Shown: in pieces, positions 37,855 through 42,054 of the stretch
Numbering within the stretch: position 1 is the stretch's first letter
Layout: every line of letters begins with the position of its first letter
Assembly (NCBI RefSeq): GCF_004023665.1
Contig: NZ_SAUF01000001.1
Span: 1,164,501-1,228,500 of the forward strand
Source: Afifella aestuarii
GTDB taxonomy: Bacteria; Pseudomonadota; Alphaproteobacteria; Rhizobiales; Afifellaceae
Length of the DNA stretch: 64,000 bases
Reading direction: 5' to 3'
The notes under the pieces: model-generated
What the model saw: the letters and a program-made list of their open reading frames with translations, nothing else
Told to the model about the DNA's origin: nothing
Databases searched by the model: none
Position numbers and translations under genes: made by a program

Positions 37855-39261
37855 ATGGGCAGTTTGCCCCCCGAAAGGGGGATGGGGGAAGGCGACGACG
37901 CATCGTCCGCAGACCGGATTTTCAAAGCGGGATTTTTCGTCTCGCTCGTGTTCATCGCCTTCGTTGCGGGGGCTATCGTAACGACGGCCGGGGTGACGCC
38001 CGGCAAGCAAATCGGCGATGCCTATCTCGGCGGCAAGGCGCTCTACGACCGCGCCACCACGACGCAAAATCTCTATCTGACGGATCTCTGGTATCCCGAG
38101 CGCCGGCCCGACAAGGGCGTGACGGTGAACGATGCGACGCGGACCGAGCAGGGGCTGACGCTCTATACCTCTGGCGAGGAGGCGGTGGCGCGGCTCATCG
38201 CCATGGACGGCACCGTCGTACACGAATGGCGCCGGCCCTACAGCTCCGTCTGGCACGAGGGCGCCGCCGTGAAGCGGCCGCAGCCCGACGCCTTCGTCTA
38301 CTTCCGCAAGGCGATCGCCTATCCGAACGGCGATCTTCTCGTCGTCTACGAGGGGGCGGGCGACACGCCCTACGGCTATGGCGTCGCCAAGCTCGACAAG
38401 GATTCCAACGTCATCTGGAGCTATCTCGCCAATGCCCACCACGACATCGATGTCGGGCCGGACGGGCGGATCTACGTCATCACGCATGAGTTCGTGAACG
38501 AAAAGCTCGACGGATTCGACAATTTCAAGCAGCCGCGGCTCGACGATTTTCTCGTCATCCTGTCGCCCGACGGACAAGAGCTGAAGAAGATCGCGCTCAT
38601 TCAGGCGGTGGCGCGGTCGGAATTCCGGCAGATGCTCTACACCGTGTCGGCCTTCGCCGTGTCGGACCCGCTGCACACCAACAATGTCGATTACATCACG
38701 GCGGAAGAGGCGGCGAATTTCCCCTATGCGAAAGAGGGGCAGGTGCTTGTGTCCTTCCGCGAACTCGGCGCCGTGGCGGTCCTCGATCCCGATGAGGAGA
38801 CGATCACCTGGGCAAAACGCTCCGACTGGCTCGGCCAGCACGATCCGGACATTCTGCCGAACGGCGATCTCATCCTCTTCGACAATTTCGGCAATTACGA
38901 TCGCGCCAATGCCCGCTCGCGCGTCATCGAGGTCAATCCGCGCACGTCGGAGATCGTCTGGGAATATGGCGGCACGCCCGAAGCGCCGCTCGACAGCATG
39001 ATCCGCTCGGCGCAGCAGCGTTTGAAGAACGGCAATACGCTCATCACCGAATCCTCCGGCGGGCGGCTTCTGGAGGTGACGCGCGAGGGCGACATCGTCT
39101 GGGAGTACATCAATCCCGTGCGGGCGGAGACGCTTGCCGGCGAGACGGTGCCGCGCCTCTCCATCCTGTGCTGGGGCCAGCGATTGCCCCCCGATTATTT
39201 CGATGCCTCCTTCACCAGCTCGTTGCAGGCGACGAGCCAGACAGGGAAGAAAACGATATGA
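37855..39261 (+). CDS. Arylsulfotransferase (ASST)-family membrane-anchored protein
   Basis: The 468-residue protein has an N-terminal transmembrane anchor (about 26-47) and a periplasmic beta-propeller with repeated NGDLL/WEY blades: AIAYPNGDLLVVYEGAGDTP, HHDIDVGPDGRIYVITHE, LPNGDLILFDNFG, and EIVWEYGG. This is the arylsulfotransferase family, whose studied members move sulfuryl groups between phenols without PAPS. AAGGAG precedes the ATG. The stop overlaps the next start (ATGA), and the operon ends with a PAPS-type sulfotransferase, suggesting a two-step sulfation or sulfate-group transfer system. Confidence 0.82.
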   Translation: MGSLPPERGMGEGDDASSADRIFKAGFFVSLVFIAFVAGAIVTTAGVTPGKQIGDAYLGGKALYDRATTTQNLYLTDLWYPERRPDKGVTVNDATRTEQGLTLYTSGEEAVARLIAMDGTVVHEWRRPYSSVWHEGAAVKRPQPDAFVYFRKAIAYPNGDLLVVYEGAGDTPYGYGVAKLDKDSNVIWSYLANAHHDIDVGPDGRIYVITHEFVNEKLDGFDNFKQPRLDDFLVILSPDGQELKKIALIQAVARSEFRQMLYTVSAFAVSDPLHTNNVDYITAEEAANFPYAKEGQVLVSFRELGAVAVLDPDEETITWAKRSDWLGQHDPDILPNGDLILFDNFGNYDRANARSRVIEVNPRTSEIVWEYGGTPEAPLDSMIRSAQQRLKNGNTLITESSGGRLLEVTREGDIVWEYINPVRAETLAGETVPRLSILCWGQRLPPDYFDASFTSSLQATSQTGKKTI

Positions 39262-39554
39262 GACGGTTTGTGTTTTTTGCTGTGACCGCAGCACTTCTGC
39301 CTTCGGCCGCCTTCGCCTATGTGGGCCCGGGCGCGGGGCTCAGCCTTCTCGGCGCCTTGTGGGCGCTCGTCGCCGCGATCGGCCTTGCGATCAGCTTCGT
39401 CGTCGCCTGGCCGATCCGCAAGCTGATGCGCAATCGCCGCAAGGCGGCTGCTGCGCGGCAGGAGAATGCCGCCGGCGCCGCACCGCTTGCTTCCCAGGCC
39501 GCGACCGCAGAGCCGGCCGGCGTCAGCGAACGGACGGCGAATGGGGCTTCTTGA
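39258..39554 (+). CDS. Small membrane protein with YVGPGAG motif
   Basis: A 98-residue protein starting within the stop of the arylsulfotransferase gene (ATGA). It has a signal-like segment (1-20), the YVGPGAGLSLLGALW motif at the mature N-terminus, one transmembrane helix (about 22-50), then a basic stretch and an Ala/Glu-rich tail. Small proteins of this type occur beside arylsulfotransferase-like genes; no function is known. Its 3' end overlaps the next gene by 14 bases. Confidence 0.75.
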   Translation: MRRFVFFAVTAALLPSAAFAYVGPGAGLSLLGALWALVAAIGLAISFVVAWPIRKLMRNRRKAAAARQENAAGAAPLASQAATAEPAGVSERTANGAS

Positions 39555-40257
39555 TCTGCCGGCGCCGCTGTTCGGCTGGATCGACGGACAGCTGTCGCAC
39601 ATTCTGCCCTCCTTCCTGGTGGTCCTGATCTGGGCGTCGGTCGCCTCGATCGCCTCCATGGAGCTCTACCGGCTGTTGTCGCCGCAGGCGCGGATCGCGG
39701 AATTGCGGGTTGCGCTGAAGGGCGCGCAGGAGCGGCTTGCCGAATTCGACGGGCCGTTCGAGGAGGCCGGCGGGCTCATCCGCAATATGCTGGGGATCGC
39801 CCTGAAGCGGGTGTTTCTCGTGCTGCCGTCGACGCTGATCGCCTCGCTGCCGCTACTCACCCTCATTCTGTGGCTCGATTCCTCCTATGCGCGCACGCTG
39901 CCGCCGGAGGGCCAGAGCGTCACCGTGCGGGCGTCGGGCAATTACGGCGGCGAATGGGTGGAAGACCGGCCGGCGCCGCGTGCCATCGTGAAGGACGCGA
40001 ACGGGGCGACGATCGCCGACGTGCCGGTGAAGGCGCCGGTGCCTGTCGTGCACAAGAAGCAGTGGTGGAACTACATCATCGGCAATCCGATCGGCTATCT
40101 CGCCGACGAGGCGCCGGTCGACGAGATCGAGATCGATTTGCCGAAGCGGGAGATCTTCACGGCCGGGCCGTCCTGGGCGCGCGGCTGGGAGATCATTTTC
40201 TTTCCGGCGCTGATCCTGATGTCGTTCGCCGCAAAATCCATCCGCAGAATCGAATAG
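39541..40257 (+). CDS. Membrane protein with TM-coiled coil-TM layout (possibly DUF106/EMC3-like)
   Basis: The 238-residue protein has TM1 (about 22-45), a charged coiled coil (RIAELRVALKGAQERLAEFD, 51-70), TM2 (about 90-112), a soluble periplasmic domain (113-212) and TM3 (about 216-232). The TM1-coil-TM2 part recalls the YidC/Oxa1/EMC3 superfamily, specifically DUF106-type proteins, but the similarity is by layout and is not firm. It lies in the sulfation operon, overlapping the previous gene and 19 bases before the sulfotransferase. Confidence 0.6.
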   Translation: MGLLDLPAPLFGWIDGQLSHILPSFLVVLIWASVASIASMELYRLLSPQARIAELRVALKGAQERLAEFDGPFEEAGGLIRNMLGIALKRVFLVLPSTLIASLPLLTLILWLDSSYARTLPPEGQSVTVRASGNYGGEWVEDRPAPRAIVKDANGATIADVPVKAPVPVVHKKQWWNYIIGNPIGYLADEAPVDEIEIDLPKREIFTAGPSWARGWEIIFFPALILMSFAAKSIRRIE

Positions 40258-40276
40258 ATGGCGCAGGAACGAATAG

Positions 40277-41428
40277 ATGGCAAAGTCTGAGACGAGCGGC
40301 CCGAAGGTCAGCGGCTGGATGGACTTTCTGAGCGGCCTCGTGGAGCGGCATCCGAGGGCGTGGATCAGGCTCGGCGATTTCGAAACGCGGATGGCGCGCG
40401 AGCGCGTCGCGGATATCAGGGTGGAGCGGCCGATCTATGTGACGGGGCTCGCGCGCTCCGGCAGCACGATGCTTCTCGAGCTTCTTGCGACCCATCCCGA
40501 TGTCGCGACGCACCGCTACCGTGATTTTCCGGCCGTGATGACGCCCCTTGCCTGGAACTGGTTCACCGACCATGCGGCGAGCGGCGAGGCACCGGCGGAG
40601 GAGCGGGCGCACAAGGACCGCATTCTGGTGACGCCGGAAAGCCCGGAAGCCTTCGAAGAGGTGATGTGGATGGCGTTCTTTGCCGGTCTGCACGATCCGG
40701 CAGCCTCCGCCGTGCTCGACCGGGCGACGGCGCATCCGGAGTTCGAGCGCTTCTACCGCGAGCATATCGCCAAGCTTCTCGTGCTGCGCGGCGGGCGGCG
40801 CTATCTCGCCAAGGGCAATTACAACGTCACGCGGCTCTCCTACCTGCAAAAACTCTTTCCCGATGCGCGCTTCCTGGTGCCGGTGCGCGACCCGGTCTGG
40901 CATATCGCTTCACTGATGAAGCAGCACCGGCTCTTCGTCGAAGCCGGCAAGGCCGATCCGCGGATCACGCGGCATTTGAGCCGCACCGGGCATTTCGAAT
41001 TCGGCCTGGAGCGGCGGGCGATCGGGCTCGGCGACAGCCAGGCGCCGGAGATCATGCGGCTGTGGGCCGAGGGCCAGGACGTCGAAGGGTGGGCGCGTTA
41101 CTGGGCGGCGCTCTATGGGCATGTCGCCGACAAGCTCGACGCTGATCCGACGCTCTCCGCGGCCACCCGCATCGTGCCCTATGAGCGGCTTTGTGCCGAT
41201 CCGGCGCGCGAGATGGCGGCGATCGCCGGCCATTGCGGGCTTCAAGGCGGCAATCTGCCGGCGCTTGCGGCCGAGCGGATCAGCGAGCCGTCCTATTATC
41301 GGCCCGATTTTACGCCAGACGAGTTGAGGACGATTGCGGCGATCACCGAGGAAACCGCGATGCGCCTTGCCCGGCATGCCGCGGATGTGCCCGCCAAGGC
41401 GGAGGCGCGCGCCGTCGCAATGGCCTGA
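40277..41428 (+). CDS. PAPS-dependent sulfotransferase family protein
   Basis: The 383-residue cytosolic protein has the 5'-phosphosulfate-binding loop YVTGLARSGSTMLLELLATH (about 50-69) and the 3'-phosphate-binding region FPDARFLVPVRDPVWHIASL (about 193-212), the two marks of PAPS-using sulfotransferases. Its acceptor is unknown; bacterial relatives modify glycans, lipids or natural products. It is last in the four-gene operon starting at 37855. Confidence 0.87.
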   Translation: MAKSETSGPKVSGWMDFLSGLVERHPRAWIRLGDFETRMARERVADIRVERPIYVTGLARSGSTMLLELLATHPDVATHRYRDFPAVMTPLAWNWFTDHAASGEAPAEERAHKDRILVTPESPEAFEEVMWMAFFAGLHDPAASAVLDRATAHPEFERFYREHIAKLLVLRGGRRYLAKGNYNVTRLSYLQKLFPDARFLVPVRDPVWHIASLMKQHRLFVEAGKADPRITRHLSRTGHFEFGLERRAIGLGDSQAPEIMRLWAEGQDVEGWARYWAALYGHVADKLDADPTLSAATRIVPYERLCADPAREMAAIAGHCGLQGGNLPALAAERISEPSYYRPDFTPDELRTIAAITEETAMRLARHAADVPAKAEARAVAMA

Positions 41429-41561: not shown

Positions 41562-41840
41562 ATGGCATCTGCAACATCCATCAAGCTCGATGACGAGATG
41601 AAGGCGCGCGTCCGGCATCTCGCCGAGGCGCGGCAACGCACGTCGCATTGGATCATGCGGGAAGCCATCGCGCAGTATGTGGAACGCGAGGAGAGGCGTG
41701 AGGCGCTTCGGCGCGACACGCTGCAGGCGTGGGAAGAGTTCCGCGAGACGGGGATGCATGCGACCGCCGACGAGGTCGACCGGTGGCTGGAGAGCTGGGG
41801 AACCGAGGACGAAACGCCTGCTCCCGGATGTCACAAGTAA
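41562..41840 (+). CDS. Ribbon-helix-helix antitoxin (ParD/CopG type)
   Basis: The 92-residue protein has an N-terminal ribbon-helix-helix fold: ATSIKLDDEMKARVRHLAEA then RTSHWIMREAIAQYVEREER, followed by an acidic C-terminal part (EVDRWLESWGTEDE) that would bind the toxin. GAGG precedes the ATG at 41562. It overlaps the toxin frame by 13 bases, the normal arrangement. With the toxin broken, it may persist as a DNA-binding regulator or as protection against related toxins. Confidence 0.9.
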   Translation: MASATSIKLDDEMKARVRHLAEARQRTSHWIMREAIAQYVEREERREALRRDTLQAWEEFRETGMHATADEVDRWLESWGTEDETPAPGCHK

Positions 41841-41965
41841 GATTTGCCCCGGCGGCGATCCGAGACCTGCAACGGCTCCGTGCGTTTCTGCGCCCGAAGA
41901 GTGCCGATGCCGCGCGCCGAGCTGGTGAAGCGATCCGGCACCAGCGTGAAGCCGGATACTCCTGA
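41828..41965 (+). pseudogene. RelE/ParE toxin with internal deletion
   Basis: The frame encodes 45 residues: MSQVRFAPAAIRDLQRLRAF, LRPKSADAARRAGEAI, then RHQREAGYS and stop. The first part is the N-terminal helical hairpin of a RelE/ParE toxin and the last part is the conserved C-terminus (usually VRHQREAGY), but the central beta-sheet and active residues, about 45 codons, are missing. An in-frame deletion within the gene is the simplest explanation. The product should be non-toxic, though it might still bind the antitoxin. Confidence 0.82.
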
Positions 41966-42054
41966 AGGTCTGTTTAAGGTCCGTGCGTGGCCTCAGCTTT
42001 TTACGCAAGCGGTTCTGAGGTGCCGACGCGCCGGGGAGGGCGCGCTGGGGTTTT

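Follow-up and report, generated by a model that had tools for sequence, protein, structure and literature searches.

Four co-directional genes of Afifella aestuarii, here called A, B, C and D, form a cassette that may relay a sulfuryl group across the inner membrane in two steps, from protein D to a carrier and from the carrier to protein A; we hold this reading with roughly even confidence. The genes lie on the forward strand of contig NZ_SAUF01000001.1, within a stretch of 64,000 nucleotides (positions 1,164,501 to 1,228,500, hereafter the window), and the region is present once in the source genome (3.9 Mb, 8 contigs). A first-pass annotation of the window had taken them for a single operon, and its four open reading frames (ORFs) were all found again at their positions and on their strand: A (stop 39261) and B (start 39258) share the 4-base overlap ATGA, B (stop 39554) and C (start 39541) overlap by 14 bases, and 19 bases separate the stop of C (40257) from the start of D (40277).

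In the proposed relay, D would load the sulfuryl group from 3'-phosphoadenosine 5'-phosphosulfate (PAPS) onto a carrier, for which a phenol, enol or lipid that dissolves in the membrane is most likely. C, with three helices and an extracytoplasmic domain, would together with B dock D and let the sulfated carrier cross the bilayer. Finally, A, whose propeller would face outward from a membrane anchor, would take the sulfuryl group on His329 and hand it to an acceptor in the envelope, most likely a surface glycan. The principle of such a relay is known from the Cpz8/Cpz4 pair (PMC6731281).

The four genes recur as a set

The first-pass annotation had treated the four genes as one set whose families should co-occur in other genomes, and this is what we observed. 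Among 150 genomes of the order, C occurs in six, including the source genome and two of its genus, and all six carry the four genes in the order ABCD. At an E-value of 1e-3, A is found in 14 and D in 23 of the 150 genomes; these two families also occur without C.

Genome contigs were scanned with A and the best 80 of 548 relatives retained, so that this sample is chosen on A (our numbers for loci and genomes begin with L and G, respectively). C is present in 29 of these 80 loci and all four genes in 28 of the 29, arranged as ABCD (24 loci), AB-A-CD (one), BCD-A (two) or with A divergent from DCB (one); within the 24 ABCD loci, L064 and L089 contain an extra B fragment match and L083 and L091 tandem A genes. 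Judging from the record titles, the complete loci belong to Alpha- and Gammaproteobacteria, Desulfobacterota-type genera, Nitrospinota and Pontiellaceae. Partial sets are also present: A and B with a divergent D, C not being found, in L095, L097 and L131, and A with D on the short contig of L082. In a further 38 of the 80 loci, some on short contigs, neither C nor D was found in the flanks examined, and one of them (L109) has B; by record title, ten of the 38 belong to Planctomycetota or Planctomycetaceae and seven to Eisenbacteria, and several are proteobacterial. Examples of A without recognised C or D nearby, some of them tandem, are L103-L107, L110-L122, L124-L130, L133 and L134.

Across 398 genomes of the phylum, C was found in eight, with B and D nearby in all eight and A too in seven. 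The scan with B, which covered 339 genomes, gave 13 matches. Eleven of them score below 1e-10, and each of these has A and D no more than about 2.1 kb away; the remaining two are weak (3e-4 and 9.5e-4). When a strong match to A or D is defined by an E-value of at most 1e-20, strong A is present in 21 and strong D in 18 of the 398 genomes, and both are present in 14 (Fisher p 1.5e-17); in all 14, A and D share a strand and are separated by no more than about 1.3 kb. Seven genomes have strong A without strong D, and four strong D without strong A. Of the latter four, G528 has a phosphodiesterase gene (PF01663) at the position of A, D is preceded by a short hydrophobic ORF in G491, the contig begins about 0.5 kb before D in G181, and in G248 D is accompanied by a weak B-like ORF on the opposite strand. 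A chance operon is thus rejected by the recurrence of the set in the order (six of six genomes with C), in the contig loci (28 of 29 with C) and in the 398 genomes. Note that the pairwise distances of A, C and D also correlate (r 0.84-0.89, for the 22 of 29 rows of the C alignment that have one A and a D row).

In G013 (L153:5608-6845), D stands without partners and is preceded by a stretch resembling residues 191-237 of C (36% identity, E 3e-6). This stretch, the last 47 residues of C, looks as if it were the scar of a lost cassette, from which A, B and most of C would have been deleted.

Two groups of ORFs located between B and D in more distant loci were rejected as relatives of C: those of L214 and L215 fit in size and location and match the C profile only weakly (E 0.0037, probability 9%), and those of L216, L218, L219 and L223 (117-131 residues) give no profile match (E 0.52). 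We regard the ORFs of both groups as positional equivalents only.

An arylsulfotransferase propeller and a PAPS-type sulfotransferase

Protein A scores above the Pfam cut-offs of both Arylsulfotran_2 (PF14269; 4.8e-28, 98.9 bits for a cut-off of 27) and Arylsulfotrans (43.1 bits for a cut-off of 24.2). In its structural model, built from 54 aligned sequences with a predicted local distance difference test score (pLDDT) of 92.8, residues 18-68 form two helices, the first of which is hydrophobic (hydropathy peak at residues 25-43). The closest PDB fold is that of Cpz4 (9kf6; Z 32.2, root-mean-square deviation (rmsd) 2.8, 312 aligned residues), followed by that of Escherichia coli AssT (3ets; Z 26.4, rmsd 3.8, 321 aligned residues); below them come an uncharacterised Bacteroides protein (3no2, Z 22.2) and other propellers from Z 20.9 down.

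AssT takes the sulfuryl group from an aryl donor in a ping-pong reaction that proceeds via H436 (PMC13426309). This residue aligns with H329 of A both in the profile alignment (AssT at E 0.025) and when hhalign is run locally (E 1.9e-4, probability 48%). Global hhalign gave no usable alignment of A and AssT over their whole length, and four of the five residue equivalences proposed in Table 1 therefore rest on motifs compared by eye. H329, H274, N276 and R302 are each kept in 53 of the 54 rows of the A alignment, and H196 in 52; with the catalytic positions conserved in this way, a dead propeller is rejected. The single cysteine of A is residue 439. A side observation concerns the tandem A genes of L091, where the second copy (L091:5081-6355) has lost the catalytic His and Arg positions that the first copy retains.

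By its Pfam families, its propeller fold and the position of its sulfo-histidine, A is a member of the arylsulfate sulfotransferase (ASST) family, from which sulfuryl transfer is predicted. The ASST-type propeller named in the first-pass annotation, which had pointed to the catalytic residues as decisive, is hence borne out, Pfam, fold, catalytic positions and the predicted membrane anchor being in agreement.

Protein D matches Sulfotransfer_3 (PF13469) at 9.5e-21 (75.5 bits for a cut-off of 27) and is weakly similar to protein-tyrosine sulfotransferase structures (E 1e-4). Residues R60, G62, T64, R204 and S212 are present in all 31 aligned members; the stretches GLARSGST and RDPVWHIAS are presumably the 5'-phosphosulfate- and 3'-phosphate-binding motifs, respectively. 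An adenosine 5'-phosphosulfate kinase is encoded in the same genome (PF01583, 2.7e-69). D is a PAPS-type sulfotransferase, predicted to be soluble and to use PAPS as its donor, as had been proposed at first reading, and its candidate PAPS motifs are intact.

Protein C has an Oxa1-superfamily-like core

No Pfam family scored above its cut-off for C of the window, and NCBIfam gave none; a Pfam scan of each of the 29 C members yielded scattered weak matches only. EMC3_TMCO1, 60KD_IMP and CHD5, which we take to be the names of the Pfam families of the Oxa1 superfamily, did not score for any of the 29 at E-values up to 5, and C is for this reason not filed as a member of the EMC3, TMCO1, GET1 or YidC families.

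A profile of the 29 C sequences nevertheless matched the PDB entry of MJ0480 at 8.4e-6, the next match being at 0.15. The matched region spans the N-terminal helix, the first membrane helix, the hairpin and the second membrane helix; as a control, shuffling the MJ0480 stretch in blocks 3000 times lowered its score from 28.6 bits to 18.5 at most, and reversing it to 5.9. MJ0480 in turn weakly matches YidC2 (0.022) and OXA1L (0.28). The model of C (pLDDT 91.6) has its top fold match in chain 8 of the multipass translocon structure 7TUT (Z 10.2, rmsd 4.0, 137 aligned residues), followed by kinesin (Z 7.4) and by 6so5_C (GET1/WRB) and a chain of a Get1/Get2 complex (Z 6.7), all in the range (Z under about 13) where matches between helical folds can be due to chance. 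From its size and from PMC9630114, in which TMCO1 is the complex's member of the Oxa1 superfamily, we take chain 8 to be TMCO1.

The core of the Oxa1 superfamily consists of three membrane helices and a cytoplasmic helical hairpin (PMC8675477). The C model displays these elements in order, with fold scores within the chance range for helical proteins, and its beta-rich insert falls in the segment that PMC8675477 terms hypervariable. The hydropathy of the third helix is at least 1.6 in 21 of the 29 rows. Altogether, the sequence match, the fold match and the order of the elements fit the Oxa1 superfamily as defined in PMC8675477. As to the first-pass description of C as a coiled-coil membrane protein, its membrane nature stands but the term coiled-coil was imprecise, the modelled segment between helices 1 and 2 being a helical hairpin. 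Likewise, to call both middle proteins uncharacterised was not fully exact, in view of the core of C. B has no Pfam family above cut-off and sub-cut-off NCBIfam matches only. In the 29 aligned B sequences, A20, Y21, G23, P24 and P52 are invariant (motif context AYVGPGAG).

The known job of Oxa1-superfamily proteins is to insert membrane proteins (PMC8675477, PMC8890630). YidC, Oxa1 and Get1 have also been found to move lipids between leaflets in vitro, in liposomes, and TMCO1 and Emc3 to scramble lipids in simulation (PMC10491306, a preprint), which makes a flipping role for C plausible.

One B-C-D module and several A genes

Seven of the 80 loci (L060, L066, L070, L071, L092, L094 and L102) hold a close A without B, C or D. 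They were rejected as counter-evidence, since all seven genomes carry, elsewhere, one strong C adjoining one strong D. B, C and D are contiguous in the five such genomes that were fetched, A being there as well in three and absent in two (L269 and L270); for L071 and L092, the same sequencing records hold the complete cassettes L062 and L063. Several A copies per module are also seen as tandem genes (L061, L083 and L091) and in G440, with three A matches for one C and one D. One B-C-D module with one or more A genes fits, and does not prove, a relay from a shared donor.

This arrangement also bears on the main rival to the relay, namely that B and C are assembly factors, C being a small insertase or chaperone that would place A (and B) in the membrane, with D and A sulfating different things and having in common just a requirement for sulfate. 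Insertion is what Oxa1-superfamily proteins are known for (PMC8675477, PMC8890630), A has an N-terminal membrane helix to be placed, and A copies can outnumber C. Such a role for C would, however, leave the tie of D to A, B and C unexplained, both where strong D matches occur with A (14 of 18) and in the genomes with an orphan A, seven of seven of which have C beside D; moreover, C and B persist without A in G528. We consider it unlikely, if still to be reckoned with.

Neighbouring genes and the possible acceptor

In five loci (L065, L066, L068, L070 and L092), the A gene lies near DprE1-like, DprE2-like and UbiA-type genes. The DprE1-like oxidase of L070 (NF053785, 5.9e-104) and the DprE2-like reductases of L065 and L066 (NF053786) score below the cut-offs of their models, and the HAD-UbiA protein of L092 scores above the cut-off of the general UbiA model and below those for decaprenyl-phosphate phosphoribosyltransferase; the copies in the other loci of the five were found by tblastn. 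More distant copies of the DprE1- and DprE2-like genes are present in L099, an A locus without C. Two of these A genes, at L066:6834-9347 and L070:6849-9350, are in-frame fusions in which A follows a multi-helix membrane domain. This domain belongs to no Pfam family and occurs as a separate protein in L065 and L068 (about 58% identical) and in L092 (about 51%). The proximity of A to DprE1/DprE2/UbiA genes and the fused A genes point to a glycan acceptor, and we hypothesise that it is a furanosyl glycan. Near the A gene of L071 are a UDP-galactopyranose mutase and a glycosyltransferase gene.

L066 further encodes a DUF4185 protein, with homologues in L065, L068 and L070 and not in L092; endo-D-arabinofuranase activity is reported for this family (PMC10115798). 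As an observation in its own right, the DprE1/DprE2/UbiA/DUF4185 set of L066 and L070 would amount to a decaprenylphosphoryl-arabinose-like pathway in Gram-negative bacteria.

Polysaccharide genes were recognised by Pfam in three (L238, L241 and L244) of the seven distant loci with wider flanks, the check being made on ten neighbours picked by eye, nine of which had a family. Within the 29 cassette loci, neighbour clustering revealed no glycan gene family recurring beyond the Mesorhizobium pair, most neighbours not having been scanned singly.

These neighbourhoods would suit a second rival explanation, that one glycan is sulfated twice, by D on a cytoplasmic lipid-linked sugar and on the outside by A, with an aryl sulfate of the environment as donor, C and B serving in glycan export: the three distant versions stand among glycosyltransferase or sugar-nucleotide genes, one of them with a Polysacc_synt flippase, and some A genes lie near the DprE1/DprE2/UbiA or UDP-galactopyranose mutase genes. 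Double sulfation is nonetheless distinctly improbable, given that B-C-D is intact in two genomes with A elsewhere (L269 and L270), that the cassette loci share no glycan family beyond the pair just mentioned, with the same limit on scanning, and that the donor of A would be left to environmental chance. The weakest explanation, in which A runs in reverse or on external molecules, taking the sulfuryl group from environmental aryl sulfates (for detoxification or sulfur scavenging), and D is a cytosolic detoxifying sulfotransferase, agrees with the many foreign phenols and aryl sulfates accepted by known ASSTs (PMC13426309) and with a PF00884-containing neighbour family in eight of the best 80 A loci and one PF00884 sulfatase-type protein beside the G528 set, but it is very improbable, as this family, which single-linkage clustering may have mixed with others, occurs in just one of the 29 cassette loci (L067) and the dedicated membrane partners B and C would be superfluous.

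Two side observations concern these neighbourhoods. The PF00884-containing family, which includes a sulfatase-type membrane protein, is represented in L067 at L067:11441-13474. In seven Thalassospira loci (L073-L075, L077, L078, L086 and L088), the cassette adjoins genes that by eye resemble those for ectoine breakdown and for tripartite ATP-independent periplasmic (TRAP) uptake, several of these neighbour families being common to most of the seven.

Weighing the relay

Several observations weigh against the relay. First, B and C are not tied to the sulfation set alone, because of four loci with other compositions. G528 (L151:4001-6967) has B, C and D, with a PF01663 phosphodiesterase in the place of A. 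L108 (L108:9197-14382) and L123 (L123:703-6230) contain C-like and B-like parts with phosphodiesterases and A, D not being found. The fourth, L080, has A, B and C without D. The C-like proteins of L108 and L123 score 32.9 and 23.5 bits, the next ORF beyond these two and the 29 C members scoring 9.0 in the 80 loci; B forms the N-terminus of the type I phosphodiesterase (PF01663) in both, and a second protein with a similar start, by eye, lies beside the phosphodiesterase. Taken together with G528, these two loci suggest that enzymes of another superfamily work with B and C as well, and hence a role for the two that is more general than sulfation. Second, the B-C-D module is not always single, since Pelagibius bin.145 has two full cassettes (L059 and L064), and the correlated distances of A, C and D would also arise from shared vertical descent. 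Third, within the proteins themselves, the position of AssT Thr501 is occupied by Arg384 in A (profile alignment), the hydropathy of helix 3 peaks at 1.57 in C of the window, just below the threshold of 1.6, Foldseek alone gave no significant match for C (best E 0.3), and a crossing of the bilayer by C is suggested by modelled fold likeness only. Fourth, the surroundings are of little help: by eye, no clear polysaccharide genes stand out in four of the seven distant loci inspected with wider flanks, the four window neighbours that were scanned point neither to sulfur metabolism nor to a glycan, and no carrier-making gene (e.g. a type III polyketide synthase, as in caprazamycin biosynthesis) was recognised among the neighbours scanned, which are only some of them. 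Finally, none of the four proteins has a substrate, carrier or activity known to us.

The relay idea was already present in the first-pass annotation. What stands of it is the operon, the recurring set, the propeller with its anchor and the PAPS-type enzyme; sequences or models argue for these enzyme families, for the catalytic positions, the membrane anchoring, the co-inheritance and the pairing of one B-C-D module with one or several A genes. The steps from carrier to acceptor are what we infer beyond this: the carrier itself, its crossing by means of C and B, the side on which A would work, the direction of transfer and the acceptor.

Features and surroundings of the cassette

The features of the four genes are collected in Table 1. 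Four neighbouring genes were scanned for families: two upstream on the opposite strand, which encode an aldo/keto reductase and a GntR regulator, and two downstream, for an RHH protein and a protein of the glyoxalase family. The RHH/CopG-type protein (PF01402, 4.6e-13; window positions 41562-41837) lies directly 3' of D and is followed by a short, truncated-looking reading frame (about 41828-41970) that by eye is ParE-like.

Table 1. Genes, motifs and modelled segments of the cassette, with their positions in the window
Feature	Position	Strand	Basis
A: ASST-type propeller, 468 aa, one N-terminal membrane helix	37855..39261	+	Pfam, model, hydropathy
A His196, proposed equivalent of AssT His252	38440..38442	+	motif by eye; 52/54 rows
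A His274-x-Asn276, proposed equivalents of AssT His356-x-Asn358	38674..38682	+	motif by eye; each 53/54 rows
A Arg302, proposed equivalent of AssT Arg374	38758..38760	+	motif by eye; 53/54 rows
A His329, equivalent by alignment of the sulfated nucleophile His436 of AssT	38839..38841	+	profile alignment, local hhalign; 53/54 rows
B: 98-aa protein, signal-like helix, YVGPGAG, second hydrophobic helix, basic tail	39258..39554	+	alignment of 29, hydropathy
B motif YVGPGAG	39318..39338	+	alignment of 29 rows
C: 238-aa membrane protein, Oxa1-superfamily-like core and beta-rich insert	39541..40257	+	model, fold, profile, shuffle control
C membrane helix 1, residues 24-46	39610..39678	+	model; hydropathy peak 21-39
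C helical hairpin, residues 49 to about 85	39685..39795	+	model helices 49-68 and 73-101; aligned with MJ0480
C membrane helix 2, about residues 86-116	39796..39888	+	hydropathy peak 91-109; model helices to 101 and 103-116
C beta-rich insert, residues 117-215	39889..40185	+	model; absent from the 151-aa C of L087
C helix 217-235, proposed membrane helix 3	40189..40245	+	model; hydropathy
D: 383-aa PAPS-type sulfotransferase, without membrane helix by hydropathy	40277..41428	+	Pfam Sulfotransfer_3 9.5e-21, hydropathy
D GLARSGST, candidate 5'-phosphosulfate-binding loop	40445..40468	+	R60, G62, T64 in 31/31 rows
D RDPVWHIAS, candidate 3'-phosphate-binding motif	40886..40912	+	R204, S212 in 31/31 rows

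Implications

Which natural molecules receive the sulfuryl group from most bacterial ASSTs, and what these enzymes do for the cell, has not been established, and the physiological role of those known is poorly understood (PMC13426309). The operon ties one branch of this family to a PAPS-type sulfotransferase via two membrane proteins; it could explain where such enzymes get their natural donor and makes this question testable. It would also provide a route to sulfated envelope molecules that needs no PAPS outside the cytoplasm. As for C, it is a candidate bacterial relative of archaeal and eukaryotic insertases, whose setting suggests a task different from protein insertion.

A broader picture, which we think possible and rather doubtful, is that of a trans-membrane sulfuryl-carrier system common to several phyla. 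In such a system D would load a lipid-soluble carrier, C, no longer inserting proteins, would flip it with the help of B, and one or several A proteins outside would use it as a common donor for the sulfation of envelope glycans, possibly furanosides, B and C constituting a general carrier-flipping pair. The furanoside idea stems from the DprE1/DprE2-like and UDP-galactopyranose mutase neighbours and from the action of Cpz4 on an aminoribose, and that of a general flipping pair from the phosphodiesterase-linked versions in L108, L123 and L151. If it is true, the sulfuryl-carrier system would be the sulfur counterpart of the polyprenyl-phosphate sugar donors.

Comparison with known systems

The closest precedent is found in caprazamycin biosynthesis, where Cpz8 uses PAPS to sulfate a triketide pyrone and Cpz4, which does not depend on PAPS, moves the sulfuryl group from there to an aminoribose (PMC6731281); Cpz4 prefers sugar hydroxyls (PMC13426309). 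Here too, a PAPS-type sulfotransferase and an ASST are encoded together, which would act in series as Cpz8 and Cpz4 do, and Cpz4 is the top fold match of A. The Cpz8/Cpz4 system differs in that it belongs to a small-molecule antibiotic pathway of Streptomyces and uses a pyrone carrier, and the available portion of PMC6731281 does not mention counterparts of B and C; in the cassette, by contrast, A is predicted to be membrane-anchored and the genes form one operon that is found in several phyla. The first-pass statement that no described pathway has this composition was therefore too strong, the two-step sulfation by Cpz8 and Cpz4 being earlier. The titles and abstract beginnings of the literature matches listed contain no description of the four-gene set, and the cassette is best seen as a known two-step sulfation principle in a membrane setting for which these matches gave no description.

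With AssT (3ELQ and relatives), A shares the propeller fold, the H436/H329 correspondence and, by eye, similar His, Asn and Arg motifs. AssT differs by its N-terminal beta-sandwich, its required disulfide and its partners DsbL and DsbI (PMC13426309), whereas A has two N-terminal helices, a single cysteine and a PAPS-type sulfotransferase as partner. The likeness of C to MJ0480 (DUF106), TMCO1 and GET1/WRB lies in the succession of an N-terminal helix, a membrane helix, a hairpin, a second membrane helix and a third helix; unlike them, C has a beta-rich insert before its last helix, scores with no such Pfam family and is encoded in a bacterial operon with sulfotransferases. Finally, D resembles tyrosylprotein sulfotransferase and other Sulfotransfer_3 enzymes by its PF13469 domain and by a weak similarity to protein-tyrosine sulfotransferase structures, but it is bacterial and, in 14 of its 18 strong matches among the 398 genomes, adjoins A.

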